Shown here: piece by piece, positions 5,379 through 33,424 of the stretch
How positions within the stretch are numbered: position 1 is the stretch's first letter
How the letters are laid out: every line of letters begins with the position of its first letter
Assembly (NCBI GenBank): GCA_013306675.1
Contig: JABLUY010000064.1
Location: forward strand, 1-64,000
Length of the DNA stretch: 64,000 nt
Direction: 5' to 3'
From: Thraustochytrium sp. TN22
Lineage: Eukaryota; Sar; Bigyra; Thraustochytrida; Thraustochytriidae
The notes under the pieces: generated by a model
Told to the model about the DNA's origin: nothing
The model's database searches: none
Seen by the model: only the letters and a program-made list of their open reading frames with translations
Made by a program: the position numbers and the translations under genes

Positions 5379-8300
5379 TTACTGAAGGAGAAAGACGCCG
5401 CGGCGGAGGATCTGCACGATGGAGGCGCGCTCCTCCTCGCGGCCGGTCTCCTGCAGCTTGGAGATGAGGCCCATGAGACCCTTGAGGATGGCCTTGGGAT
5501 CCTGCTGGCCGAGGCCAATGACCTGGTTCGCGATGGCGTTGGCACGGATGGTGGAGAGCTGGCGGTCGAGCGCCTGCTTGCCGTCGGCAGAGAGGAGCCA
5601 GTCGCAGACGAGGTTGTCGTTGGACCAGTCCGGCACGGCGGCGGTGTAGGTGGCGTTGAAGACGGCCTCGATGATCTCGAGCGGCTTGGAGTCGTCGCCG
5701 CGCGTGGGCGCGTCGGCGGTCGAGTCCGAGGCGGTAGAGGCGTTGGAGGCGACGCCCGCGGCGGCGAGCTGGGTGTCGAGCTCGGTGTGGAGCGCGAGGA
5801 CCTTGTTGACCTCGGCGATGGCGTCCATCTCGGCCAGACGGCGGCGGAGGCGGGCGTGGAAGAAGCGGCGCGAGTTGGTCCAGTCAACGACGGAGCGGAT
5901 GACGCCCTTGGCCTGCATGCGGCCGGGGCGATCGTGAAGGTCGCCAAAGTGGACGGCGATCTGGTGAAAGATGGGGGTGAGCATCTTCTCGCGCTCGGCG
6001 ATCTGCTTGCGCAGCGCGGGAGCATCGGCCGAGTCCGGGCCGGCGAGCTTGAGCTGCTCGTCGAGGGCGCGGAGCTTGTCATCGACGCGGTGGGCCGTGG
6101 CGATGACGTCCTTGGTGCGGTACTTGATGGAAACGACACCGGCGGGCTCGAGGACACCGCCGCGCGCCTCGGGGGCGGCGTACATCTCCATCATGCCCGG
6201 GTTGATGGTCTCGTCGACCACGACCCAGGCGCCGCCGCGCAGCTCACCAAAGGGCGGCAGGTAGACGAAGACCGGCTGCTTGTACTCGACGAGGGCGTCG
6301 ACGATGTAGGCGCCGAACTTGACGATCTGGTCGAACATGTCGCGGGTGCCGCCGGAGAAGCCGCGCCAGTTGGCGAAGAGCATCAGCGGGAGGCCCTCGC
6401 GGTTGAAGTCGGCGATGGCCTGGGCGGTCTTGTAGGACGAGTCCGGGAACCAGACCTGGCCAGCCTGCTGCCAGATGCGCTCCTGCGAGTCCGGGGCGGC
6501 CGGGTCCGCCGGGGCGCGGGCCTCGACAGTGCGGATCTCCGAGATGATGACACCCATGGGGATCTTGCCGAGGCGGGCGCGGCCGGCGATGACCGTGCGG
6601 GCCCAGCCGGAGAGGGTCTCGGTGAAGGAGTCCTTGTCGAAGAAGCCCGAGAGCCACGTGTCCTCGTCCTTGGCCATGCCGGTGAGGAGGAGGCGCGGGT
6701 CGTAGTCCGGGCCGATGTCGCGAGGGTGCACGTCGACGTTGCGGTCGATGCGGTCGCCGAGCGAGAGCGCGGTGAGCGGGAGCGGGGCGCCGCGGCGCTC
6801 CGGCACGTACGCGAGCCAGTTGACCATGGAGGCGACACCCTCGAGGTCGTGGCGCACGCTCTGGTGCGAGACACCGTTGGCGAACATGACCTTGGTGCCG
6901 CCGAGCTGCAGGTTGGACGTGTAGACGTTGCTGCCCATGAGCGAGTTGAGCGCCTGGTAGCCGGTGAGCAGAATCGGCGCGTTCTTGCCCTTTTGCACAA
7001 TGCGCTGGCCGAGGCGCACGAGGTAGGCGCCAATGCCGACGGAGCGGCCCGAGACGTACGAAAGCGTAAAGGACTCCTCGTAGGCGCGGGCGGTCTCACC
7101 AGCGATGGTGCCAGAGCCGCGCAGGTTCTCGACGCCGAGGTCGGGGGACTCACCGACGATGGCCTCGATCTTGAAGTGGTCCGTGCCCTCGACCTTCTCG
7201 GCGATGAGGCTCTTGCGGCCCTCCGGGCCGAGCTGGTGGTAGGCGTCCTCCTCGACGTAGATGTAGTCGAAGCCCTTGGCCGGGTCCTCCGGGTTGATCC
7301 ACTTGACCTTGAAGGCGCGCTTGACCTCGTCGGCCATGCCGATGCGGGCACCCGAGTTGGCGGCGATGTAGAGGCGCGGCAGGCCGTTGAGGCGCGCGTA
7401 GCGCGAGGCCTGGTCGAAGAGCATGTCCTCGCGCGTGCCGAAGGAGCCGGCCTTGACGGTGATGTCGTTGGCGATCACCACGACCTCGCGGCCCTGCGGG
7501 TACTGCGGCGTGCGCAGCACGTAGCGCCAGGCGACCATGCCGATGGTGTTGCGGCCAGCCTTGCGGTCGACGCGGCACAGGCGCGGCGCGTTGACCGGGT
7601 CGACCGGGTCGCTGGCCTCAAAGTCGTCGTCCAGGACGAACTCCTCGGCCTCCACAAGCAGCTTGCGCGCCGGCATGGACTGCTTGACGCCCGTCTTGGC
7701 GAGGTAGGTGCGCCACTCAAACTCGATCGCCTTGCGGAAGAGGTCCGGAAAGTCGTAGGCGAAGGTAGTGCTGGCGGCGCGCGCACGCGCGCGGCGCTCG
7801 TCGAACTCGTCCGCCACCGGGTACGGCGTGTGCAGCGGCTTGCCGTGCAGGAGGCCCGAGCTGCCGCTCGAGATGGCGCCCGTGGCGTCGGCCTCGCTGG
7901 TGCCGAGGCCCATGGCGGCCATGGCGCCGCCCAGGCCGTTGTCGCCCTCCGAGATGGAGTAGTACATGGAGTCCTGCGGGCTGGTCGGGTCGGTGGCCTC
8001 GACGTAGGTATCGATGTTGAGCGCAAAGCCGGTCGGGTTGGCCGCCACCACGCGGATGGGCATGCTGGGCGCGCCCTCGGCGAGGACCGCGTTGACGCGA
8101 ATCTCAAACTCCTCCACGTTCTGCGCTTGCAGGCGGCGCGCGTAGCGGCGGTGCAGGGTGCGGATGATGCCCTCAACATAGGCGGCGTCCACGTTGGCGG
8201 CGTCCGAGAGCACGTTCATGAAGATGTGGTTCTTGCGAGCCTTGGAGCTGGCGTCGTCCTGAACGGACTCGAGCGCGCGCAGCGCCTGCACGAAGACGCG

Positions 8301-11300
8301 CTCGGGGCCCGGGTAGGCGTCAAAGGCGCCGACGTCGAGCTTGACACGCTCCGCCTCGCGCACCAGAGCGCGGACAAAGTAACGGCGCATGCCGCGCTTG
8401 CCTTCCGGCGCGTTCTTGGGCGTGGCCTCGTACACGTGCACGGTCTGCGAGCGGCTCATGCTGCGGCCAATGGGCACCATGCGGATGTTAAAGTTGGAGA
8501 GGCGCTGCAGGTCGAGCTGGAAGGCGAGCGGGGTCTCGATGTTGCGAACCAGGCGGTCCTCCTCGTAGCCGGAGCTCTTGCGGAAGGTAAAGAAGTGGCC
8601 ACCGTGGCCGGCCACAATGGCCTGGTGCCGGTCCGCCTCCTCGTACTTGGAGCGCACGCAGCCAAAGGTGATGCGGCGCACGTTGTGGTTCTCCAGAACC
8701 TGCTTGTGCTTCTGCACGAGGCTCGAGAGCTGCTCCGAGACGTCCGTCTCGCGGTCGAAGAGCGTGCCAAAGACAACGTGCATGACGTTGAGCGGGATGG
8801 CCGTCTCCTCGTCGTCGTCCAGGTCGGGCGAGCCGGAGAAGTCCTTGACGGCGGTGGCGAGCCCAGCGTCGAGCTCGTTCATGTCCTCGAAGTAGAGCAG
8901 CTTGCCGTTGCGGTGCACGTAAGGCGGGACGACGTTGCCGGTCTTGCCCTCGACCGAGGCGGAGCGCGCCTTGAAGTCCGAGCCCTGGCGCGGGCCGAGC
9001 GACTTGGCGGTCGGCGTCGAGGTGGACACGGTCGAGGCCGTGGTGCCCAGGCCGCGCGAGAGCGTGGGCGGCGGGACGGCCTCGGCGCCGCCAAAGTCCA
9101 TGTCCATGCCGACGCTGCTGCCGTCCGCCTCGGACGGGTCCTCCTTGGCGAGGTCCGCGAGGTTGAACTGCGAGTGGTTGCTGAGCACCGAAGTGAGGTC
9201 CTCAAAGGAGGAGACGCTGGCCAGCGAGGAGCCCACCTGCACGGCGTCCGTGGCCTCCGAGAAGAAGGTGAAGTCGCACGTGAGGTTGTGCTTGGAGCCC
9301 TCGCCGGTCTTGACGTCCACGAGCTTGTAGGCAGCGTAGACGCGCTCCACGTAGAGACGGAGCGCCGCCTTGCGCAGGTCCGAGCCCTGGTCCTCGTAGC
9401 GCGAGATGATGTCCATGAGGTAGGCCAGCACCGGCTCGGTGGACTGGACGAGCTCCTCGCGGGCGTCGTCGTCGCCCTTCATGACGCGCTGCAGCTTGTC
9501 CGTGACAGCGGAGAGCTGCTCCTCGTAGGTGCGCTCGAGCTCGATGAGCGACTGGCGCGCCTCGAGGGCCACGTCAGTGGTCTTGATGCCCTGGAGCGCG
9601 GCGACCTCCTGCATGATCTTGGCGCAGGCCTCGCGCAGCTTGGCGGCCGAGGCGCCCACGACCGTGGAGCGCACGAGCGCCTCGAGCTCGCCGAGGATGG
9701 CCAGCACGAGGGAATCGCGCGGGCCGCGCGAGTGGTGCGCGAGCGCGAAGCGGTGCACCTTGGGCAGGTCCGTGGCGTTCTGCACGCGAAGCTCCTGGAG
9801 GACGTCGTCCTTGTCGGCGGCGTCCGAGAGCTCAAGCTCGGCGAACTTGGCCTCGATCTCGACGAAGCTGTCGACGAGCTTGCCGAGGATGCTGGCGTGC
9901 AGCATGCTGAGGCCAGCGGCGTAGGCGCGCGTGACGCTGAGCATCTCCTGCACGCCCGGCTCGGCGGCGTAGTCCTGGACCGCGGCGAGAGCGGCCTGCG
10001 AGAACTCGGTCGTGTCCTCGAGCGTGGGGGACGCCTTCTGGCGGAAGCCACGGCAGAGCGCGTCGAGAGACTTGACCACGGGCTTGGGCAGCGCGTTCTT
10101 CGAGCGGGCCAGGATGGCCTCGGTCTCCAGCACGGGCAGCATCGGGCTCGAGAGCGCCTCGCGCAGGTCGGCGAGCGCCTGCGAAGCGACGGTCTTGTCC
10201 ACGTCGTAGCCAGCCATGACGTTGGCGAGCTTGGCCTGGGCGCGCTCCAGCGTGTGGTGCGGCATGCCGCGCAGCGCCTGCGGCCACGGGTCGCCGACCT
10301 TGGGCAGGGTGTCCTCGAAGAGGCGCGCCTTCTGGACCTTGCTCGGGTCCTTGAGCTCCATGGTGCAGATCATGTCGCCGGGCTCCATGACGGCGCCCGC
10401 CGGCTTGTGCAGCGTGATGGTGCCGGCCTCGAGCGCGGAGAGCGTCATGTTCATCTTCATGACCTCGATCTCCGCAAAGCCGTCGCCCTTCTCCAGGACG
10501 GCGCCATCCTCGACGAGGTAGCGCAGCAGCTTGCCACCCATCTGCGCGCGCATCTGAGTCGGGTCGTACTCGTCCTCAAAGAGGCAAGTCTGGCCGTCGA
10601 TCATGTAGCGCTGCGCGCCGACGTCGTCCTTGACGTAGGCCACGTGCGAGCGGCCGCCAATGAGCACGAGGAAGCCGCCGTCCGCCAGGCAGCGCAGCTC
10701 GGCGTCCACGTACGTCTCGTTGCAGTAGAGACGGTAGGTGGTCTCGCCCGTGTGGTGCGCCGTGAAGCGGTACTTGACGCCCTCGTAGATGAGCTCGAAG
10801 GAGTGCGTCTGGTCAAGCAGCTGCTGCGGCGGCAGCTGGCCGCGCTCCAGCATGCCGCGGTAGTCCGCGGCGCGCGCCGCGATCTCGCGGTGCGCGGTGC
10901 ACGTGCCGCCCACCAGGGCGATCGTGACCGGGTTCATCTTGGCCACGGCGACGTTACGCTTGATGCGCGCGTCGAGCCAGGCCGTGTTGAACTTGTTGTT
11001 GACGTAGTCCTCGGACTCGATCAGGTCCTTGAGGTACTCGATCGTGGTGCGGATCTCACCGCGGATCGAGAGGTCATGCAGGGCGACCGCCAGGTTGCGG
11101 CGCGCCTCCTCGCGGGTCTCGCCCCACGCAAAAACGTGGCCGATCTGCGAGTCGGCGAACTCGTGCACGCGGCCGGAGCTGTCCACGGAGAAGTAACCCC
11201 AGACATTGCGCATCGAACGGAAGTTGATCTCGGTGATCTGGCCAATGGTGGGCTGGAAGCCGTTGAAGGGGTTCTCGGCCGTGATACGCGCCGCGATGGT

Positions 11301-12545
11301 GTGGCCCTTGGTGTAGCTCTTGACCGTGCCGCCCTCGCGGTACTCGTCCTCGAAGTCGATCTCGCTCGAGCCATAGGCGTCCTCGGCGCCGTAGAAGCGC
11401 CGGACGTCCGGGATGCGGTGCAGCGGGATGCCCATGGCCACCTGGATCTGCGCGGCCGGCACGTTCATGCCCGTGATCATCTCCGTCACCGGGTGCTCCA
11501 CCTGGAGCCGCGGGTTGAGCTCGAGGAAGAAGAAGTCGTCCTTCTCATCGTACAGGTACTCGACCGTGCCGGCGTTCACGTAGCCGACCTCCTTGGCGAG
11601 GCGGATGGCGGCATGCTCCATCTGCTTCCAGCGGTCCGGCTTGGCCGCCACGGGCGGGCCCTCCTCGAGGATCTTCTGGTGGCGACGCTGCACCGAGCAG
11701 TCACGGCCGCTCAGGGCAATGGCCTGGCCGTACTCGTCGGCCAGCAGCTGCACCTCAAGGTGGCGGGCGCGCTCCGCAAGGCGCATGATGAAGATGGGGC
11801 TGCCCGGCACCTCACTCTGCACCTGGCGGAAGCAGGCCTCGACCTTGGCGTAGTCGTCCACGAGGCGGATGCCCTTGCCGCCACCGCCCTCGCTGGCCTT
11901 GATCATGACGGGAACGCCAATCTTCTCGATCTGCGCGAGCGCCTCCTCCACCGTCTGCACGTTGGCGCGATCGAAGATCTCCGCCGACACGCCGCCGTCC
12001 TCCTTGTAGTTGACGCGGATGTCGGAGCCGTTCCAGGCGATCATGGGGCAGTCGCACGACTGCGCAATGATGCTGCTCATGATCTTGTCGCCCAGCGCGT
12101 TCATCGGGCCGGCCGGCGGGCCGACGAAGAGGATGCCGAGCTCCGCCAGCGTGCCGGGCAGGGCCGGGTTCTCACTCGCATGGCCCCAGCCGGCCCACAC
12201 GGCGTCCACCTCGTACTGCTGCGCGACCTCCACGATCAGGCTCACGTTCGCGTAGTTGTTCACGTTCGAGCCGCCCGGCACGTGGCACACCTGGTCCGCA
12301 GCGCGGATGTACTCGGCGTTGGCGCCCAGATCCTCGGGCGTCGCCATGGCCACGATGGTGATCTCCTTCTCATTCTGGAACGTCGAGTAGCACCACGTGC
12401 GCAGCGACCGGATCGCCTTGGCGCCGGCCATGCCGTTCGTGGCCAGCAGCAGCTTCTTGATCACGCGCTTGCCGCCCTGGGCCTTGACGTACTCCTCCAT
12501 GTTCCCGAAGGAGGCCACCGACGAGGCCGGAGCGTCCTGCTGCAT
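5379..12545 (-). CDS. ACC1: Acetyl-CoA carboxylase, homomeric multidomain
   Basis: The 2388-residue protein makes malonyl-CoA from acetyl-CoA, bicarbonate and ATP, the committed step of fatty-acid synthesis. Domain order is standard. Biotin carboxylase comes first, with the ATP-grasp loop GGGGKGIR near residue 223, RDCSVQRRHQKI at about 285 and EHPVTEMITG at about 345. The biotinyl domain follows with EVMKMNM and biotin-accepting Lys697. A long ACC central region comes next. The carboxyltransferase (about 1540-2260) carries GYQALNSLMGSNVYTSN, GGTKVMFANGVSHQSV, VFVYLPPFGELRGGAW and a GMMEMYAAPEARGG segment. Length matches animal/fungal and other eukaryotic cytosolic enzymes. The start (MQQDAPASSVASF) gives only about 25 residues before the biotin carboxylase fold and shows no signal or plastid transit peptide, suggesting a cytosolic enzyme. 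A single uninterrupted frame of 7.2 kb shows how intron-poor the genome is. Confidence 0.97.
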   Translation of the reverse strand: MQQDAPASSVASFGNMEEYVKAQGGKRVIKKLLLATNGMAGAKAIRSLRTWCYSTFQNEKEITIVAMATPEDLGANAEYIRAADQVCHVPGGSNVNNYANVSLIVEVAQQYEVDAVWAGWGHASENPALPGTLAELGILFVGPPAGPMNALGDKIMSSIIAQSCDCPMIAWNGSDIRVNYKEDGGVSAEIFDRANVQTVEEALAQIEKIGVPVMIKASEGGGGKGIRLVDDYAKVEACFRQVQSEVPGSPIFIMRLAERARHLEVQLLADEYGQAIALSGRDCSVQRRHQKILEEGPPVAAKPDRWKQMEHAAIRLAKEVGYVNAGTVEYLYDEKDDFFFLELNPRLQVEHPVTEMITGMNVPAAQIQVAMGIPLHRIPDVRRFYGAEDAYGSSEIDFEDEYREGGTVKSYTKGHTIAARITAENPFNGFQPTIGQITEINFRSMRNVWGYFSVDSSGRVHEFADSQIGHVFAWGETREEARRNLAVALHDLSIRGEIRTTIEYLKDLIESEDYVNNKFNTAWLDARIKRNVAVAKMNPVTIALVGGTCTAHREIAARAADYRGMLERGQLPPQQLLDQTHSFELIYEGVKYRFTAHHTGETTYRLYCNETYVDAELRCLADGGFLVLIGGRSHVAYVKDDVGAQRYMIDGQTCLFEDEYDPTQMRAQMGGKLLRYLVEDGAVLEKGDGFAEIEVMKMNMTLSALEAGTITLHKPAGAVMEPGDMICTMELKDPSKVQKARLFEDTLPKVGDPWPQALRGMPHHTLERAQAKLANVMAGYDVDKTVASQALADLREALSSPMLPVLETEAILARSKNALPKPVVKSLDALCRGFRQKASPTLEDTTEFSQAALAAVQDYAAEPGVQEMLSVTRAYAAGLSMLHASILGKLVDSFVEIEAKFAELELSDAADKDDVLQELRVQNATDLPKVHRFALAHHSRGPRDSLVLAILGELEALVRSTVVGASAAKLREACAKIMQEVAALQGIKTTDVALEARQSLIELERTYEEQLSAVTDKLQRVMKGDDDAREELVQSTEPVLAYLMDIISRYEDQGSDLRKAALRLYVERVYAAYKLVDVKTGEGSKHNLTCDFTFFSEATDAVQVGSSLASVSSFEDLTSVLSNHSQFNLADLAKEDPSEADGSSVGMDMDFGGAEAVPPPTLSRGLGTTASTVSTSTPTAKSLGPRQGSDFKARSASVEGKTGNVVPPYVHRNGKLLYFEDMNELDAGLATAVKDFSGSPDLDDDEETAIPLNVMHVVFGTLFDRETDVSEQLSSLVQKHKQVLENHNVRRITFGCVRSKYEEADRHQAIVAGHGGHFFTFRKSSGYEEDRLVRNIETPLAFQLDLQRLSNFNIRMVPIGRSMSRSQTVHVYEATPKNAPEGKRGMRRYFVRALVREAERVKLDVGAFDAYPGPERVFVQALRALESVQDDASSKARKNHIFMNVLSDAANVDAAYVEGIIRTLHRRYARRLQAQNVEEFEIRVNAVLAEGAPSMPIRVVAANPTGFALNIDTYVEATDPTSPQDSMYYSISEGDNGLGGAMAAMGLGTSEADATGAISSGSSGLLHGKPLHTPYPVADEFDERRARARAASTTFAYDFPDLFRKAIEFEWRTYLAKTGVKQSMPARKLLVEAEEFVLDDDFEASDPVDPVNAPRLCRVDRKAGRNTIGMVAWRYVLRTPQYPQGREVVVIANDITVKAGSFGTREDMLFDQASRYARLNGLPRLYIAANSGARIGMADEVKRAFKVKWINPEDPAKGFDYIYVEEDAYHQLGPEGRKSLIAEKVEGTDHFKIEAIVGESPDLGVENLRGSGTIAGETARAYEESFTLSYVSGRSVGIGAYLVRLGQRIVQKGKNAPILLTGYQALNSLMGSNVYTSNLQLGGTKVMFANGVSHQSVRHDLEGVASMVNWLAYVPERRGAPLPLTALSLGDRIDRNVDVHPRDIGPDYDPRLLLTGMAKDEDTWLSGFFDKDSFTETLSGWARTVIAGRARLGKIPMGVIISEIRTVEARAPADPAAPDSQERIWQQAGQVWFPDSSYKTAQAIADFNREGLPLMLFANWRGFSGGTRDMFDQIVKFGAYIVDALVEYKQPVFVYLPPFGELRGGAWVVVDETINPGMMEMYAAPEARGGVLEPAGVVSIKYRTKDVIATAHRVDDKLRALDEQLKLAGPDSADAPALRKQIAEREKMLTPIFHQIAVHFGDLHDRPGRMQAKGVIRSVVDWTNSRRFFHARLRRRLAEMDAIAEVNKVLALHTELDTQLAAAGVASNASTASDSTADAPTRGDDSKPLEIIEAVFNATYTAAVPDWSNDNLVCDWLLSADGKQALDRQLSTIRANAIANQVIGLGQQDPKAILKGLMGLISKLQETGREEERASIVQILRRGVFLLQ

Positions 12546-14789
12546 GGTGCCTGCTGCTGGGCTTCTTGCTGCTGCTGCTGCTGCCGCTGCTGTTGCTGCT
12601 GCTGCCGGTCCTGCTCTCGCTCGCGCGCGCGCTCGCTCGCTGCCGCCGATTCTTCTTCCCTGCGGCTGCGGCTGCAGCTACAGGTCTGCCGCCTCCGTCT
12701 CGTGCCGCCGTGGCCGAGTCGCCCGCTGACGCAATTGGATCACAACCCGAGAGAGCGGACCCGCTGCACTACGCCAGTGGCAGGCCGCGTTACCGCCGCC
12801 GCCGCCGCTGCCGCTGCCGCTGTGCTGTGCTGCGCTGCGCTGCGCGTCGGTCCTGGACAGGCAGGACGAGCTCGCCGGGGACGAGCTGTCGTTGCAATAC
12901 CCCAAGCGCTTTGATTGAGGTCTGCTGCCCGCGCGCCCGCCGGCGGCGCCCGGCGTGCTGCGCAAGATCTTCGAATTCGAAAAAACAGGGGGGCAGCCAC
13001 GGAAGCGCCGCCGACGCCGGCCGACCTGCGCGACGACGCAAGCGGCCTGTGCGCCTGCGCCGCGGAGCCTGCGGAGCCTGCCCGCGGAGCACGCACTGGC
13101 TGCCTGCCGCTGCCTGGCCCTGGCCACGCCCGCCAACGCTGCCGCGTCGCCGAGCGCCGCGCGGACGGCGGCCGCCTTTGACGCGAGGCGGCGTGGTTGT
13201 CCGCCGCGCTTTGAACGATCGTGGCGTGCTGCATCCTCACGCACAGTCAGAGACCGTCAATGTCAATAATGCAAGCAAAGCTTGCGGCAAGAAGCCGAGC
13301 ACGTATCGCGGCCGCGATTCTCGCCTCGGAATTGATCGATGATGCATCCATCTGATTCCATCCATCAGGATTGACGCGCCTCGCCTCGCAGCCGAGGCCG
13401 CGCGGCGAGCGTCGCCCAGCGAGCGAGCCTCGTCCACGACGTCCAGGCGGCGAGGCGAGCCCGGAGCTGGTTTCGAACGCCAGCGCATAGCGCAGGAGCG
13501 TGGCCGCGCTCGCGTCGTTGCAGCCAGCCAGCCAGCCCGCCCGCGTGCCCTCAGCTCAGATCAAGCGTGGTGATGGCCCGCCGTGCCCCGCCTGCCCCCG
13601 CACAACTATGGTTCGTCATCGCACGCACGCACGCAATGCCAAGCACGCACGCACGCACGCACGCACGCAAGCGCTGCTCGCGACCAGCCTGACAGAGAGG
13701 AGAGAGGCAAGCAAGGCTTGCTTGCCCAGGCAGACGGAACGCTGGAACCGGCGCCGCGGGCGTCGGGCGCTGACGCAGGCCTGACTCTGACTGACACATG
13801 GCGCGCCGCGCGTGGCCGAGGCCGTGGCACCGGCCGCAGCGGCCGCTGCGCTGCGCTGCGCTGCGCTGCGCCATGCCAAGCTTGCCGCGTCAAGGCTCCG
13901 TCGCCGTCGCGGCGGCGGCGCCGCGCGTCCGCCTGCCGATGCGCTGCGCAGCGCTGCATTGAAGCTGCTCGCTGCTCGCTCGCAGTGCCCTCGGGCAGCG
14001 CCGTGGTTGAGTGACGCGACGACGTAAGCGGCGGCCACCTGACGTCAGCGGCGCGGCGGCGGGCTCGGGAGCCTGGAGCGCGGGCGGCGGGGCGGCGCGG
14101 GACGGGGCGGGCGACGGGCAGGACCGCGGGAAGCAGTCGGCGGCCGCTCCGGTTTGGTTGGTAGGGTAGGGTAACTTACTCGGCGTCCCGCGTAGGCTGG
14201 GCAAGCACTGCAAGATGCTGCACGCACTGCACTGCACTAGCAGACAGCTGCTGCAGCGCTGCGGCCACGTGCGACGGAGCCGCGGCTGCGGCTGCGGCTG
14301 TGTCATGAACCTGACGAGCAGACGGAAGGCGTGACGAGCCGGAGCCGCGCCGAAGATTGGAGAGGAGCGTGACAAGGAGATCGCGATTCGCAGCTCGCTG
14401 ACCAGCGCAAAGCAAAGTACCCGTGCGGAGACTCGCCGAGGCTCGTCATCGTCGATCCGCGGACCGTCCGCGATCGGCAGAGCGGCGAATGCCAGACTGC
14501 CACTGCTCTCCCAGACTCTGTCGGAGTCTGTCCCTCTCTCTCTCCTCTCGCGCGCGCGAGCTGGCTGGTCGACGTCCGAGGCTTGTACAGAGGACGTCGT
14601 TCGGACCGTGACGCGTGCGGCGGTCCGCGAGATCACCGATCTGCTCGCACCGCTGTTCGGAGCACCAAGGCAACAAAGCGCACTGCACTCAGTGACAGCT
14701 GGCGAGTGAGCTACGGACGGCCCGGGAGGCGGCACAGGAGAAAAGAGTTCAACCTTGAATAATTGATTGGTACCCTGGTACCATGGTAC
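12546..14789. other. Intergenic region upstream of ACC
   Basis: This 2.2 kb should hold the ACC promoter and 5' UTR (next to 12546) and the 3' UTR of the membrane-protein gene (next to 14789). The first 250 bp read as CTG/GCC-type trinucleotide repeats. A GCAC tetranucleotide array lies at 13621-13671 and a GCGCT pentanucleotide run at about 13849-13872. Short open frames occur on both strands but none has protein-like conserved features. Confidence 0.5.
13621..13671. repeat. GCAC tetranucleotide microsatellite
   Basis: Tandem gcac units interrupted once by an atgccaa segment; directly visible. Confidence 0.9.
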
Positions 14790-24413: not shown

Positions 24414-25640
24414 CTAGGAGCCGCGCGCTGGTTCGCTGAGCGGCGTGGACGTCGGGCTGGGCTCATGACTCGCCTGCGCGGACTCGCAAATGCGCTGCAT
24501 CATGCTGAGCTCCGCGCGGCTTTGCAAGGTCGGGTCCTGCGCGAGCGAGCGCGCCATCATGCCGACGGACTGCACAGCCTGCAGCAGCTCGAGCTTCTCG
24601 CGCTGGGCCTTGCGCTCCCGGATGCGCGAGGCGGCCACCGCGTGGTTCGAGGCACGCTGCGGAGGTTGGTCCAAGACCGCCGTCTCGCGCGCCGCCTGCA
24701 TCTCGTCGCGGAAGTTCTGCACCAGCTCCTCGAAGGACTCCTCGACGGCATTCATATGCCGCTTCAGGGCCCGGCCCAGCGAGGCCGGCGCGCTGCTGGC
24801 GTCCACGCCCGCGCGTGCGTCCGCGGCACGGCGCGGGTACCCGAGAAGGTCTTCGCACTTGTGCATGTAGGCAAAGATCGGCTCCGCGAGTTCTTTCGGC
24901 GCCGCCACAGAAGAGGTCGCGGCCGGGCCTGCGGATGCCGGTGCCGACGCCTGCTCGGGGCCTGGCGACGGCGCGAGGCGCGGTGCCATCCGCTTGAGCT
25001 TGGCCTCGGCCGCCTTGACCCTGGCGGCGGCCGCGGCCACCTTGCGCTCGCGCGCCTCAACACGGCCCTCGCGCTTGCCCACGCGGATCTGCCGGTCTGA
25101 GAGCGTGCGCAGCTGCTCCTGGGCCGCGTCGCGCTCGTGCCGCAGCTGGCCCACCTCGCGGCGCAGCGCGTCATTCTCGGATTGCAGCTCGGCCTCGAAC
25201 TTGCGCACATCCAGCACGGCCAGCTCAAAGAGGTCCTCGAAGAGCTCTCTGTGCGCCTCCAGCTCGGGCGCGCGCAGCGCGCTCACCAGCCGGCTCAGCG
25301 AGCTCGGCGTGCTCCGTGACGGCGACGGCGAGGACCACTGCGGGGCCTTTGCCGTGGCATTCTCCGGCGTCGAGGCTGCCGGCGCCGGCGCCCCGAGGGG
25401 GCCGTCGTGCTCCTCGGCGCGCGACTTCATCTCGCTCGCCGGCAGCGCCTGCGCCTGCACCTGGCCCACTACCTGCACCGAGGTGGTCCGCGTGTACGTC
25501 TGCGTCTGTGTCTGCGTCTGTGTCTGCGTCTGCGTCTGCGTAGGCTCGCCCGCCTCCGCGTCGCGCTTCTTGCGGCGCAGAAACGCCTCGGCGCGCTCCA
25601 GCAGGCCCGGCGCGCCCAGCCCGGCGCGCCCGTCGTCCAT
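24414..25640 (-). CDS. Coiled-coil protein of unknown function
   Basis: I take the ATG at 25640, giving 408 residues. The frame stays open to 26471, but that extension runs under the start of the FANCM gene and is Arg/Pro/Ala-rich. The protein opens with LLERAEAFLRRKKRDAEAGE, then a Thr-Gln repeat written by GTCTGC units (25489-25541). A long coiled coil follows (about 140-235: HRELFEDLFELAVLDVRKFE, SENDALRREVGQLRHERD, GRVEARERKVAAAAARVKAA), then a second helical region (IFAYMHKCEDLLGYPRRA, MNAVEESFEELVQNFRDEMQ, EKLELLQAVQSVGMMARSL). No family is recognised; a structural or trafficking role would be a guess. It converges with the kinesin gene (185 bp) and diverges from the FANCM gene. Confidence 0.7.
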   Translation of the reverse strand: MDDGRAGLGAPGLLERAEAFLRRKKRDAEAGEPTQTQTQTQTQTQTQTYTRTTSVQVVGQVQAQALPASEMKSRAEEHDGPLGAPAPAASTPENATAKAPQWSSPSPSRSTPSSLSRLVSALRAPELEAHRELFEDLFELAVLDVRKFEAELQSENDALRREVGQLRHERDAAQEQLRTLSDRQIRVGKREGRVEARERKVAAAAARVKAAEAKLKRMAPRLAPSPGPEQASAPASAGPAATSSVAAPKELAEPIFAYMHKCEDLLGYPRRAADARAGVDASSAPASLGRALKRHMNAVEESFEELVQNFRDEMQAARETAVLDQPPQRASNHAVAASRIRERKAQREKLELLQAVQSVGMMARSLAQDPTLQSRAELSMMQRICESAQASHEPSPTSTPLSEPARGS

Positions 25641-26044
25641 GGCAGACCCGCGCCGCGCCGCGCCAAGCAAGGCTGACTGCGTGCCGCAGTCTGGGCCCGA
25701 GCCCGAGCCCGAGCTCTGGTGCAAGTTCGCTCTCTCTCGTGATCTGCGATTCTGCGACGGCAGCCGTTGCGCCGCTTGCGCGGTGGCCGCCCGCGAGCCG
25801 CGCCGCGGCGTGCGCAACGCATCGTGACGGTTAGTCCCGTTCCGCGGCGCCGCCCGGGCTCCAAGGAGAAGGAGGAGGAGGAGGAGGAGGAGGAGGAGGA
25901 GGAGGAGGAGGAGAGGGAGGGGACCGCGCCGCCAAGCGCCGCCGAGCTCGGCAGAGGCCGAACCCGTCGGCCCGGCCCGGGGCGGGGTGGGGCGGCGCGG
26001 CGCGGCGCGGCGCGGCGGCCGCCCGCGGGCCCGCCACGACCACG
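25641..26044. promoter_or_regulatory. Divergent intergenic region (coiled-coil gene / FANCM gene)
   Basis: 404 bp between two starts. It contains a GGA trinucleotide run at about 25861-25920 and a GGCGC/GCGGC run at about 25990-26020 just before the FANCM ATG. Confidence 0.45.
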
Positions 26045-26417
26045 ATGAGCGACGAGCTGCTGGAGAGCGGCGAGCTGCTAGAGATGTTGGAACGCGCGGA
26101 GCAGATGCACGCGCAGCAAGGCAAGGCGCAGGCGAGGCGCAAGCCGGAGCAGGCGCTCGTGCGCCGCGCGAATACCAGGCCGTGCACGTGCGGATTTCGG
26201 AGCTCGCAGCGCGTGGGCGGCGGCGGTGGCGGCGGCGTCGGAGGCGACGTCTGCGACTTTTGCGAGGGCTCGCTACTGCCGCAGCAGCAGGCGAAGCGGG
26301 CGCAGCAGAAGGTCCAGCAGGCCGTAGAGCCGTCGACATTGGACCCCGCGCGCAAGGCGGCCTTCTCCGCTCCGAGCCGCCCCTCCGCATCCTCATCCTC
26401 CTCGTCCGCTTCGACGT

Positions 26418-26448
<31 letters not shown>

Positions 26449-29400
26449 CTCGTCGCTGTTGCCGGCGACATCTGGCAACCAAGGACGCAATGCGAACCTA
26501 GGGAGCGTCATCACTCCAGGCTCGAATCCTGGGCGAAGCCGGTACTTTGCGTCCATGAAACTGGGCGACTCACACATGCCAAACTCGACCAAGACCTTCA
26601 CGAACACGGCCAAGCCGGCGACCTCAGCCCCAACCACGCACAGTAGCACGAGCCGACCCAAAAAGGCTCTGCTTGGGTCGCTCGGCGCGTCAAATCCATG
26701 GTCGCGCGCCCAGCGCGGGGGCGCAGGGGCACGCCGGAAGCAGGAGGCGGAGGACCATGACGACGACGACGACGAGATGGCCGCCGACATCGCGCCGCCG
26801 GTGCCGCACGATGAGGAGGCCATAAAGACGTGGGTGTTTCCGATGAGTGAGTCGTACGCGAAACGCGAGTACCAGTTCAGCATCATCAAGGCGGCACTGC
26901 TGCGCAACACGCTGGTGGTCCTGCCGACCGGCCTTGGCAAAACCTTCATCGCCGCGGTGGTCATGTACAACATGCTGCGCTGGTTTCCCACGGGCAAGAT
27001 CATCTTCGTGGCGCCTACCAAACCGCTGGTCTCGCAGCAGGTGGAGGCGTGCCACCGCATCGTGGGCATTGACGAGTCCATCACGAGCCGCATGATGGGC
27101 ACGGTGAACGCGAGCACGCGTAAGGCACTCTGGGAGGAGCGCCGGCTCTTCTATTGCACGCCGCAGACGGCAGAAAACGACTGCAAGAACGGGTTTGTGC
27201 CCATGGACAAGGTGGTGTGCGTGGTGATTGATGAGGCGCACCGCGCCACGGGCAACTACGCCTTCGTGAACCTGGTCAAGGAGCTGCGGTCCCGGTCGCA
27301 GAGCTTCCGCATCCTGGCGCTCAGTGCCACGCCCGGCAGCGACAAACAGCGTGTGCAGGATGTCGTGGATAACCTGTACGTGGCCAACATCGAGTACAAG
27401 TCAGAGATGGACCCGGACGTGAAGCCGTACGTCTTCAACAAGCTCATCAAAATCGTCGACGTCAAGGCGAGTTCCGGCATGGCGAACGTGCACATGCGCC
27501 TGCTGGACTTTGTGCGCCCGATCCACCGCTCGCTCATGGCGAGCAACGCCTGCCCGCCCATGTTGCGCCGCTCGCTCGACAAGCTGACAGCTGACATCGT
27601 CATCACGGCGCGCAACTCGCTGCACCACAACCCGCTGGCCGCCCCGATCCAGGAGGCGCGGCGAATCAGCGCCGACATGGGGGCACTCAGCACCCTTCTT
27701 CAAGGCGTCAAGTTTCTCTCGATCGAGGGCGTGCGGGGCATGGTCTCGCACTTTGAGCAGCAGCAGCGCCGCTCCAAGAACGCGAGGCTGGAGTCTATCT
27801 TCCGGGACAGGCGTTGGCGGTCCTTTCTGGACGATATGCGCTCGCTCGGCAATGATCCCGCCTCCAATCCCAAGGTGAGCAAGATGATTGAAGTGCTCAA
27901 TGAGCACTTCGAGCGCATGCGCACCGCCGGCCAGCAGACGAGCTGTATCATATTCGCACACTCGCGAATCACGGTGGCCGGTCTGGTGGAGGTCATTTCC
28001 GAGCGTACCGACCTGCGCGTCTCGCCCTTTGTGGGCCAGCGGTCCACCACGACCGCCAAGGACCGCGCCAAGGCGAAGATGGCGCGCGCATCGGCGCACA
28101 TCTCCGAGGCCGAGCTGGACATTGAAGACGAAGACGGGGATGCTGAGGACGACGATGGGGATGACGACGGCAGCGGCGAGGTCGACAGCGGACCGCGCGC
28201 GGACGCGGTTCAACCCGAGGAGAGCGTGGCGACGCGTGGCCAGAACCAAAAGGAGCAGCAGGCCATTATCAACAAATTCAAGAGCGGCGCGCTGGACGTC
28301 CTTGTGGCCACCTGTATCGGCGAGGAGGGCCTCGACATTGGGTCCGTTGACCTCATTGTGTGCTTCGATTCGCTCAAGTCGCCAGTACGCATGGTCCAGC
28401 GCTTCGGCCGGGCGGGCCGCAAGCGCAGCGGCTCCGTCGTGCTCCTGGTCAGCGAGGGCAAGGAGAAGAACGACCTCGTGGCCGGCACGGAGCGCTCGAA
28501 CAAGATCCACAAGCTGCTCCGCGAACGTCTGCCCTCCATCACGCTGCACCGCGCCGCAAACCCGCGCATGGTGCCCCGCGGCGTGCGCCCCGAGGTGGAC
28601 TATCGTCAGTTGGAAATTGGCGACTTTCGCGCTTCGCAGGTCGCCGGTGTCACGCCGCGCAAGCGCAAGTCCGTCGGGGCCAAGGGCACCGACAAGGACG
28701 TCAAGCGTCGCCAGTCCGACAACAATTGGGTCGCTGTGACTCCGCTGCGCCCGCTCACGGGCGCCGAGCGCCAGTACTATGACGACTTTGTACGCACAGC
28801 GCGCAAGCCCACCGACTCGCTCTTCGAATTTTCCATCTTCAACCGCAAGGACGAGATCGTGCCGGGCGGCGGCCTCGTCGATCCATCCTCGCGGACACGC
28901 GCCTACCTGCGTGTCAAGGACTTCATCGAGAAGCGCGCCTGGGAGGACGGCGCGGTGGACCTCTTCGAGGAGGGGACACTGCGGAACGGTGACAAGGCCG
29001 GCAGCAGGGACGAGGACCTGCTTTCGGAGGTGTCTCACCGCGATCGGCACGCCCGTGCCCGGCCCAAGGGCCCGCCTGCGCCCGACTGGAACGCCCGCTC
29101 CCAAGATGGCCCTGCCGCGGCGGCGCCTGTCGTGGAGGTGCTGGACCTGGTCGGTGCGGACTCCGGCTCGGAGGCTGCTGGCGACGATATGGAGCGCGAC
29201 GAGGACGATGTCGATGTGCCGGCAAGGGATTCGGATTCGGACGCGGACGAGAATGACGATGGGAACGTGGTCGCCGAGACAAAGTCTCAAGCGACCAAGG
29301 CGACCGAAGCGAACGATGCCGAGGAGTGGAAGCCCAGATTCGCCGTGGGGGACCAGGTCACGGTGCGCCCGCGCAAAGGCCCAGGGCCCTACAGGGCAGC

Positions 29401-32400
29401 GGCGTCTGCGCGGGTGACGGCGGTGGACAGATCCTCGCGCACCTACGACCTCCGCCTCCCGGTTGACGGTGGAACGGAGCGCAAGGTTGACGAATCGCTC
29501 CTCGAGCCGGGTATCGTCCCGGACCTGATTTTGCAGTCCAGCCTGCCGGCGAGCGAGCGCCGGGGCGACGCGTCAGGTCCGGCCCACAAGGCGGCGGGAG
29601 ACCCGGCTGCTAAGTGTTCGAGGGCGCGGCAGGCCAAGCTCGGCAAGTCCTACGCGGAGGCATCTATCTCCCCGACGCCGTCGCGGTCCCAGACCGCGAG
29701 CTCCGTCGACCACCAGAAGCCCTCTCAGACCAGCGCGAGCGACGAGGCGGCCTTGGAAGCGCCCAGCTCGCAGGAGGCATCGCCGCCAGAGGAGGTGGAC
29801 GTCGGCGCAGCATCGATCGAGCTGCACGTGCCGAGCGCCGGGATCTCGGGTTCTGTGCACGAAGACGACGAGGACCAGCGCAACGCCTCCACCTCCGCCT
29901 CTGGGGACGAGGACGACGACGCCATGTCGTACTTTGAGGAGGAGATCGCGCTTCCGCCAAGTCCCTACCGCACTGTAGCCTGCGCACCACCTCCGAGCGC
30001 GCGCCGTGGCGAGCCATGCTCGTGTTGCGGAGAAGGCGGTTCGCGTCCAGGCGATCCGCTCCTTTCGTGCGAGGGCTTGCGCACGTGCCGTGCCCGCGTT
30101 CATGCCACGTGCGTGGGCGCTCGCGAGACGGCGGGCTGGCGTTGCGAGCCTTGTCGCCGAGGCGCCGCCCCTGACGCCCGCTTCTGCGCCCTTTGCCCGC
30201 GCAAGGACGGCGCTCTTATCCCGTACAAGGACAAGGCCTGGCTACACGCGTCTTGCACGTGGTGGAACCCGAAGCTGCACATGCTCGTGGATCCTGACGG
30301 CTACTTTTTGGGCGTCGACCTCGAGCCTAGCACTCCGCGTGCCGACCCTCTGCGGCTTCACCAGGTCCCATGCTCCTACTGCAGCAGGAGGATTGGCGCC
30401 TGCGTATCGTGCCGCGCTCCCGGTTGCGCGTTTGCCATGCATCCGTCATGCGCTGTGCATGGAGGTGCCACGCTCTCACAGCCGCGCTGCGCATTTCATG
30501 TGCAGCGCAGAGCTGTGGAAGGCAACGCCGACGCAGACCAGCTTGAAGTCCGTCACGAGCGCCAGAACCCCGAGACTGAGACCCGCAAGCGTGAGCACCG
30601 CGTAGTTCGCGAGACACGCCTGCTTGAGGAGCGCGAGAAGCCTGGACGCGAGCAGCGCGAGCGGCGCGAGCATGTTGAGCAATTTGAGCAGCATGAGCGT
30701 GGGCAGTGTGAACAGCTCGAGCAGCGTGGAAAGCTCAAGCAGCGTGAACAGCTCGAGCAGCGTGAACAGCTCGAGCAGCGCGAACAGCTCGAGCAGCGCG
30801 AACAGCTCAAGCAGCGTGAAGTCTTCGAGCAGCGTGAGAAGCTCAAACAGCGCGAAGAGCTCAAGCAGCGTGAAGAGCTCGAGCAGCATGAAAAGCTCGA
30901 AGAGCGCGAAAAGCTCAAGCAGGATGAGACGCACGAGCACCAAGAACGCCCGAAGCATAAGCGCGACAAGATGGAAGAAAAACAAGGACAACCACCGGCC
31001 CAGCAAAGCGCTCATACAAAGCACGCAATCAACGATGGCGCAGGACACTCACCATTTCGCGGACCCGCCGTTACGCCTTCGTACGATCAAAGCGCTCCTC
31101 TAAAGATGGGGTCGGCTTCGCGTGCCCGGCAACGACAGGCATTGCAGGTCCTGGAGCTCAACTCGGCGACCGAGGGCATGGAATCACGGCTAGCTTCCAC
31201 AACAAGGCCGGGGAGCTCGAGCGAGAGTCCGGCGCCCAGGCCTGCTGCGGCCAGCACGCTGCACACCTCAACGATTGTGACGTCAAAGGCGCCGCGCGTG
31301 CTGGTCACCCCGCGCGCCTCGAAGAGCTCGTCCTCGTCCTCGCTCTCGAAGGCGCTGCCGCCGGCGCGAGTCACCCCACGAGCCAGTGAGAGCGGATCTT
31401 CATCCTCACAACAGGAGCTGGCCGCCCCGCGACCCTTTGCTGCCCCGGCGAGGCTTCCTACGATTGTCAACACGCCCGAGTCGGCCGACGCCTCGGGCCA
31501 ACCACGCAAGAAGCACCTGAAGCGGAAAAGGAGGAGGACGAAGAAGCAGCAGCCACAACAGCGCATCGAGGATCCTGTCGAGAATGGCGTTGCCAGTGAC
31601 TCCGACGAGGATGAGGATGGAAGCGAAAGTGAGGATGTAATGAGCGTGAGCTCTGCGTCGCCGATCGTGCGCAAGGCCGCCCAGGAGAAGCATCGCAAGG
31701 GTCGGCTCCTCTCCAAGTCCAAGAAGAAGTTCTTCGAGGACGAGGCGGAGGAATCAGGCAGCGCTAGCGAAGACGAAGAGGAGGGACACAGCGATGCGGA
31801 TGAGGATGGCAACCTGCGGGGCTTGATTGACGACAGCTCGCTTCCATCTCAGGCAACGGGCTCGCAGCACCGTCACCGAACGCCAGCTCGGTCTGCGAAT
31901 GTGTACCGGCGCAAGATGATGGAAGACTCGCCGCTCCGCATGTTCGGGCGCGGGCGGATGGCCATGCCGATCCTGTCTGCACACCTGCGCGCCCTGGAGG
32001 ATCGAGAGAGTGGCGCCGGAGCGTCGTCGCCACGATCGCCCCTTCGTGCTGCCCCGCCGGCGTCGCCCGCGTCTCCATCCCAGTCGGGCGAGGAGGACGA
32101 GAACGCGAATGACGATGATGGTGATGAGGAGGAAGACGAGGAGGAAAGCGGTTCTGCGTGCAGGAAGGAAAGGACAACAAGCAAGCAAGAGCAGCAGAAG
32201 AAGAAGAAGAAGCGCAAGGTGCTTGAGGACACGCAATCGCAAGACTTCGTGGCTGCCAGCAGCACGATCAAGGCTAAGCCTGCTGCGTGGCGCAAGGTGC
32301 TTCAGGACACACAGTCGCAGGAGTTCGTAATCGCCAGCAACCCGCGTGGGCCAGGCGCGTCGAACGACGTTGAAGCAGTGGACTTGACGCAGGACCCCGT

Positions 32401-33424
32401 TGCAAGCACAGCGCCGCCCTTGGCGATTGCGGCACCGGCGAGCGCAGTCGCGCATAACTCTGCGAAGGGTGCTCACGAGGCGAGCGAGCTTGGCCGAGCT
32501 GCAGAGGCGGCGCCTGTGGCGACCAGGGCACCTTGGGAGCAAACTGCGCCGGCGAGCAAAGCCACCAGCTCGACGAGGGAGCCGGGCGAATCGAGCAGAC
32601 CTGCAAAAGCCGCACCCGAAGCCGAAGCCGCAGGTGCTTCTTCAGGCGCAGACCGAGCGCATGCTGCGGCGCCGGCGGCGTTTCGGGTGTGGGCGGATGC
32701 GCACGCGAGCGGGTCGCTCATGACGGAAGTGTGCCGGCGGATGCGGCACGGGCGCAGGTTCGACGTGGAGATGGTGCGCAGCTTCCCTTTGCAAGGTTTT
32801 GACTTCGTGCTGAGCTCGCGCGTGGGTGTTTGCGTGGTGTCGCAGCGGCGGCTGATGAAGCTGGCGATGATGCCGCCCATCGGCGCGAACCGGACGGTCG
32901 GCGCGGCTGGGCGGCCGCCCACCGGGCTGCACGAGCTGCTGAACAAGGCCGCGCTGCTGTACGCGCAGCCGCTGCTGATCGTGCAGCACGACGAGAAGGA
33001 GGGCGTGGACCTGCAGCTGCACCCGGAGGATGCGTACGCGGAGAGCTTCATGCAGGCGTATCTGACGGCGCAGACGTGGGGTCGCGCGCAGGTGCTGCTG
33101 AGCTCGTCGGTGGATGAAACACTGGGTATTTTGCGGCATGTGTGCGAGACGGAGGAGCGGGACGGGACGAGTCTGCGTGCGCTTGGCGTGCACGGAGAGA
33201 CGACGGCCCGCGAGGAGCATGTGCAGGTGCTGCACTTTCTTCTGACGCTTCGCAGTGTGAGCCTGGTGACGGCGCACCGCATCGTGCGTGAAAACGCGGG
33301 GCGGTCGCTGCTGGAGGTTCTGGAGACGCTCAAGGCGAGGGAACTGGTGGCGCAGGTGCCGGGCTTGTCTGTGGACATTGCAGGGCTCATTGTGACATGG
33401 CTGGTCCGACGAACACAAGAGTAA
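26045..33424 (+). CDS. FANCM: FANCM/Mph1-type DNA translocase with inserted Tudor-like, PHD and extended-PHD domains
   Basis: A 2459-residue protein in one frame. The superfamily 2 helicase core has LPTGLGKTFIAAV (Walker A, near 293), APTKPLVSQQ, DEAH (near 395), LSATPG, and a C-terminal helicase lobe with IIFAHSRITVAGL (near 635) and GEEGLDIGSVDLI through RFGRAGRKRSG (about 758-790). This is the FANCM/Mph1/Hef signature, so it should remodel forks, D-loops and crosslink lesions in the nucleus. Further on come a Tudor-like stretch (about 1095-1155, FAVGDQVTVRPRKGPGPY), a PHD finger from Cys1325 and an extended PHD (about 1380-1487, with KAWLHASCTWW and MHPSCAVHGG), then a Gln/Arg/Glu/Leu hexad array (about 1500-1650). 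Two KVL-E/Q-DTQSQ motifs lie near 2057 and 2084. The C-terminus (about 2212-2459) is a degenerate ERCC4-type nuclease plus helix-hairpin-helix region, as in FANCM. Human FANCM (about 2048 residues) has the two ends but no PHD module. Confidence 0.93.
30700..30950 (+). repeat. 18-bp minisatellite encoding a Glu-Gln-Leu-Lys/Glu-Gln-Arg hexad array
   Basis: Near-repeats of an 18-bp unit such as gaacagctcgagcagcgt lie within the FANCM gene and encode repeated EQLEQR/EKLKQR hexads. A six-residue period does not give a stable heptad coiled coil; the alternating acidic and basic residues resemble single alpha-helix spacers. Confidence 0.8.

Follow-up and report, generated by a model that had tools for sequence, protein, structure and literature searches.

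The way in which FANCM finds its substrates in chromatin is usually put down to partners, namely MHF, the FA core complex and UHRF1. The protein itself is described as a helicase followed by an ERCC4-like domain and an (HhH)2 pair (available text of PMC5876677). UHRF1 brings Tudor and PHD modules into interstrand-crosslink repair, the animal protein being reported as a crosslink sensor that recruits FANCD2 (available text of PMC4386029), but it does so as a protein of its own, which also has SRA and RING domains (PMC11270427, in the portion available). In plants, two recombination and repair proteins, BRCA1 and BARD1, bear an extended PHD (ePHD), a parallel for the gain of a recruitment module (accessible part of PMC11014961). 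Diatom FANCM genes are given as present, without architecture, in the accessible part of PMC4647503. The literature covered on FANCM fusions and on stramenopile and protist FANCM, with most subscription papers outside its scope, yielded no FANCM–PHD or FANCM–Tudor fusion, judged by titles and abstract openings, and the word PHD is absent from the main texts of PMC11061109 and PMC5876677.

The locus described here encodes a FANCM whose linker carries both kinds of chromatin module. It lies in a window of 64,000 nucleotides, the whole stretch of DNA that was analysed (G000:C414:1-64000), from a genome of 37.9 Mb in 453 contigs; GC ranges from 60 to 79% across 2-kb blocks of the window. The features of the gene are as follows.

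26045..33424, plus strand: FANCM-like protein of 2459 aa, a single ORF with 0 internal stops
26828..28534, plus strand: FANCM/Hef-type SF2 translocase core, aa ~262-830, from PDB matches and motifs read directly
29318..29518, plus strand: Tudor-like SH3-fold barrel, aa 1092-1158, related to a domain of the genome's BRCA1 orthologue
30008..30511, plus strand: PZP module (PHD1, zinc knuckle, extended PHD), aa 1322-1489, with 20/20 zinc ligands and matches to JADE1 and Pfam
30703..30922, plus strand: 18-nt tandem repeat of 12.2 copies, coding a charged EQREQL-type linker, from a repeat search
32597..33421, plus strand: C-terminal segment, aa 2185-2459, a probable degenerate ERCC4-like domain with a helix-hairpin-helix pair, from weak PDB matches

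The helicase motifs of the core are intact by direct reading (Walker A LPTGLGKT, DEAH and QRFGRAGR), and the SF2 translocase is active-looking. Its best PDB match is a FANCM structure (9el5, 6.5e-108), followed at 2.1e-63 by 1wp9, which we take to be archaeal Hef; the next entry scores 1.8e-25. A search of the genome with the core gave 14 matches, the best non-self one reaching 7.5e-8 over a short stretch, and a second FANCM-like core was not found by this query. The C-terminal segment is harder to place. Its PDB search gave four hits at E <= 10, three of which are FANCM C-termini with weak values (E 0.011-0.016, or about 0.1 as a single stretch); these are the only hits under E 1. The segment has no Pfam match, a genome search with it at E up to 10 brought back no further copy, and its single-sequence structure model, with a helical end at low confidence, is unusable at a mean pLDDT of 40.4. 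Read by eye, VVS stands where the ERK of the ERCC4 nuclease motif would be, a loss that we would expect in the inactive FANCM version. The tail is probably a degenerate ERCC4-HhH of the FANCM type.

On these grounds the ORF is assigned to FANCM as an orthologue, and the genome yielded no other. This upholds the identification made in an earlier note from the core and the ERCC4/HhH tail, although the tail match is weak. Likeness to FANCM and archaeal Hef extends from the core and tail matches to the lack of a second copy among the search results and to the presence of MHF1- and MHF2-family matches in the genome. The protein departs from them in a linker that bears the Tudor-like barrel and the PZP, and in an MHF-binding segment that is not recognised after the core, either by Pfam or in a PDB search with aa 830-1000 at E up to 10.

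The genome also matches the families FANCL_C (5.5e-21), FANCI_S2 (1.2e-23), CENP-S/MHF1 (2.6e-16) and CENP-X/MHF2 (4.3e-7), each above its curated cut-off, and a Fanconi-type pathway is therefore likely to be present, with this FANCM as its probable anchor. The CENP-S family is not exclusive to MHF1, because two archaeal controls also match it, one of them over the cut-off. The PND domain of FAAP24 was not found in the genome, and one archaeal control matched it below the cut-off. The Pfam search for FANCD2 is uninformative on absence, the controls being without a match just as the genome is.

Whether the modules belong to the same gene was judged on the continuity of the frame. The 2459 codons run without a stop, and across the same span the two alternative forward frames are interrupted by 44 and 62 stops; when the sequence was shuffled 2000 times, the linkers 851-1091, 1159-1323 and 1488-2185 remained free of stops in 0.2%, 2.7% and 0 of the trials, respectively. 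Continuity by chance is thus very unlikely, which counts against the chance joining of two genes that the earlier note had named as a possible refutation. The ORF frame scores best of six in 20 of 25 hundred-codon blocks, the exceptions starting at 101, 1301, 1501, 1701 and 2101. Synonymous codon bias varies along the gene, with z values of +1.5 in the core, -3.7 in the PZP, -6.7 and -7.5 in the linkers after it, -3.0 in the tail and between -1.9 and -0.7 in the remaining segments. The PZP of a second protein of the genome (C244, below) has a z of +2.3, but that gene was in the training set.

The reading in which two genes, or an assembly join, appear as one frame draws on the shift in codon bias near the PZP start, on the block 1301-1400, in which the ORF frame is not best of six, and on the reliance on one assembly. 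It has to contend not only with the open frame, above all across 1488-2185, but also with a FANCM-like tail that follows the PZP in the same frame, as in known FANCM, where core and tail form one polypeptide (available text of PMC5876677). Frame continuity led to its rejection; because codon bias shifts at the PZP, it keeps a very small residual probability. The stretch from the PZP to the C-terminus (30008-33421) is unusual in its own right, since its synonymous codon bias is markedly below that of the helicase core of the same ORF; this part of the gene seems less optimised and is perhaps younger or faster-evolving. The 18-nt repeat falls within it, coding a Glu/Gln/Arg-rich linker stretch just after the PZP.

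The PZP is complete. All 20 zinc ligands are present, in the order C4HC3 PHD, C2HC knuckle and C4HC2H ePHD, and JADE1 is the best PZP match (4.6e-14, 55.8 bits), accompanied by JADE3, BRPF1, NTO1, AF10 and PHF14 among 11 sequences at E <= 0.01. The Pfam family zf-HC5HC2H_2 is matched at 52.3 bits against a cut-off of 27, so that the zinc fingers are significant in the domain search that the earlier note had proposed as a check. In a second structure model, the PZP part stayed under pLDDT 50. The order claimed in that note, Tudor-like, PHD and extended PHD between core and tail, is borne out by this module and the SH3/Tudor-like barrel before it, and the architecture of core, Tudor-like domain, PZP and tail can be taken as well supported with high confidence, the tail being its weakest part. 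The fusion of domains is real and unusual, and the repair gene that bears it is otherwise orthodox. The layout is that of the PZP readers, but here it is fused to a repair translocase; compared with UHRF1, the modules lie in cis on FANCM and include a PZP rather than a single PHD. The PZP query returned one other PZP from the genome, with four candidates scored: C244 (L018:983-4186, minus strand), a separate PZP protein with an acidic PHD1 and BRPF1 as its best hit (2.9e-23).

Three functions for the module were weighed against residues defined in BRPF1. In that protein, F292 and D294 of PHD1 lie in the histone site, DNA binding needs K383, K390 and R392, F292/D294 mutants leave the complex still recruited to chromatin, and lesions in the knuckle or PHD2 reduce that recruitment, for which the DNA-binding knuckle-PHD2 half is needed (all in the available text of PMC4705663). 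For the PZPs of AF10 and PHF14, H3(20-28) is a further ligand (PMC10124903, in the portion available). If the module still worked as BRPF1 and JADE do, recognising the H3 N-terminus in its unmodified form (H3K4me0), it would recruit FANCM according to histone modification state, as the earlier note proposed. Every zinc ligand is kept, as is the Trp before the last PHD1 pair; Glu1343, which follows Cys1342 and takes the place of D294, is a conservative change and the same Glu is found in the C244 PZP; and 4 of the 11 matched sequences come with histone H3 named as part of the molecule. The printed alignment (FANCM in its own numbering) nevertheless places Ser1341 at F292, and the spacing between ligands 3 and 4 of PHD1 is three residues longer than in JADE1 and one longer than in C244. 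Moreover, PHD1 has a net charge of +1 and a pI of 7.7, compared with charges of -3 to -7 and pI values of 4.05-4.65 in the five other PZPs of this comparison (C244, JADE1, JADE3, BRPF1 and NTO1, with AF10 and PHF14 left out). An acidic PHD1 with an H3 site of the BRPF1 F292/D294 type is therefore not what the sequence of the FANCM PZP presents, and the region expected to contact a histone tail looks changed. H3-mark reading is accordingly judged improbable, and the suggestion in the earlier note that repair is coupled "directly to a histone mark" goes beyond what the sequence shows, the sequence being partly against it.

The altered H3 site would also suit a module that has lost chromatin reading and either binds another protein, such as a repair partner, or acts as a structural spacer. 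The module has diverged strongly, scoring 55.8 bits with JADE1 where the C244 PZP scores 91.7 bits with BRPF1, and this points the same way, as does a Tudor-like barrel that lacks the Trp found in its relative in C144; retention of 20/20 zinc ligands and a strongly basic ePHD half are difficult to square with such a role, which we regard as doubtful. The basic character is pronounced in the knuckle-ePHD half as a whole (pI 9.2 and charge +8.2, against 8.6 and +4.3 in C244), and together with the altered PHD1 it favours anchoring to nucleosomes or DNA over reading H3K4me0. The residues at the DNA site of BRPF1 count against anchoring, K383 and K390 being replaced by Gln1440 and Ser1447 and only R392 being kept, as Arg1449; JADE1 itself has, among these three positions in the printed alignment, only a Lys at that of R392. 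Anchoring of FANCM to chromatin or DNA through its PZP is a likely function, given about an even chance.

The Tudor-like domain has relatives within the same genome. A query with the FANCM copy returned one other match at E <= 0.001, with two candidates scored, in C255 (L019:257-3901, plus strand), at 35% identity and E values of 4.9e-4 across the whole genome and 2e-8 pairwise. C255 has a RING and tandem BRCT with the Tudor-like domain between them, and its best PDB match is BRCA1 for both (BRCT 1.5e-13, RING 5.4e-10, among the best 60 of 132 hits); it is classed on these domains as a BRCA1 orthologue. A related Tudor-like domain in the BRCA1 orthologue of this genome is a new element of the comparison. 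The ePHD-bearing BRCA1 and BARD1 of plants are other proteins than the FANCM described here, and the BRCA1 of this genome has a Tudor-like domain and gives no ePHD hit in Pfam. The C255 domain, used as a query, returned a relative at 60% identity in C144, two of four candidates passing, and the FANCM copy was not among its matches at E <= 0.001. C144 (L026:1314-3677, minus strand) is a protein without a Pfam match, with a Tudor-like domain of the RTWPGINKPGG type. The FANCM domain is nearer to the BRCA1 copy (37.7 bits) than to the C144 copy (26.6 bits). With regard to an aromatic cage for methyl-lysine/arginine, the Trp of RTWPGINKPGG in C144 has given way, by eye, to Gln in BRCA1 and to Gly in FANCM. 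In a Foldseek search for the Tudor sub-type, no hit reached E <= 0.001, the best being a chain of a lambda-type antitermination complex (1.4e-2) and the second the LBR Tudor domain (1.6e-2). PDB hits to PPR proteins in the sub-type search (query aa 65-83, E down to 1.3e-6) were set aside as a bias artefact, 0 stretches passing alone.

The explanation that we prefer, at roughly evens when taken as a whole, is that a FANCM orthologue acquired two insertions, a Tudor-like barrel and a complete PZP, in the long stretch that links its core to its tail. The strongly basic knuckle-ePHD half of the PZP would hold FANCM on nucleosomal or linker DNA close to forks or crosslinks, while PHD1 would make a weak or altered histone contact. 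The Tudor-like domain may be a docking module of a kind common to FANCM and BRCA1, which could give both repair proteins a route to the same chromatin or the same partner. A bolder extension, rather unlikely at present, is that this shared module, with the PZP of FANCM, directs fork or crosslink remodelling and BRCA1 signalling in cis to a single chromatin state, with no adaptor protein of the UHRF1 or 53BP1 type in between. Several observations weigh against the preferred explanation: the low codon bias from the PZP to the C-terminus, the five of 25 blocks in which the ORF frame is not best, the undetected FAAP24 and MHF-binding segment, the weak tail match and the failure of the C255 Tudor query to return the FANCM copy at E <= 0.001.

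The FANCM motor may thus be anchored to chromatin directly, via built-in modules. If so, this FANCM, with nucleosome binding built into it in cis, would amount to a natural experiment, in which translocation and chromatin engagement are separable by mutation. The Tudor-like relative in BRCA1 suggests that the gain of recruitment modules by repair proteins can recur in evolution. Scans that find close relatives only gave no pattern match for the PZP in viral contigs, 78 pattern matches but no relative for the helicase core in the same contigs, and 22 pattern matches but no relative for the PZP in contigs of prokaryotic genomes.

Around the gene, the closest genes that could be recognised encode a kinesin with a KIF9 domain and an alpha/beta-hydrolase; a minus-strand ORF (24414-26471) sits between the kinesin and FANCM ORFs and overlaps the start of the latter. 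Rfam gave no match within the window at gathering scores. Elsewhere in the window, two very long ORFs overlap on opposite strands, at 5379-12545 (minus, 2388 aa) and 5787-12914 (plus, 2375 aa), of which probably only one is coding.
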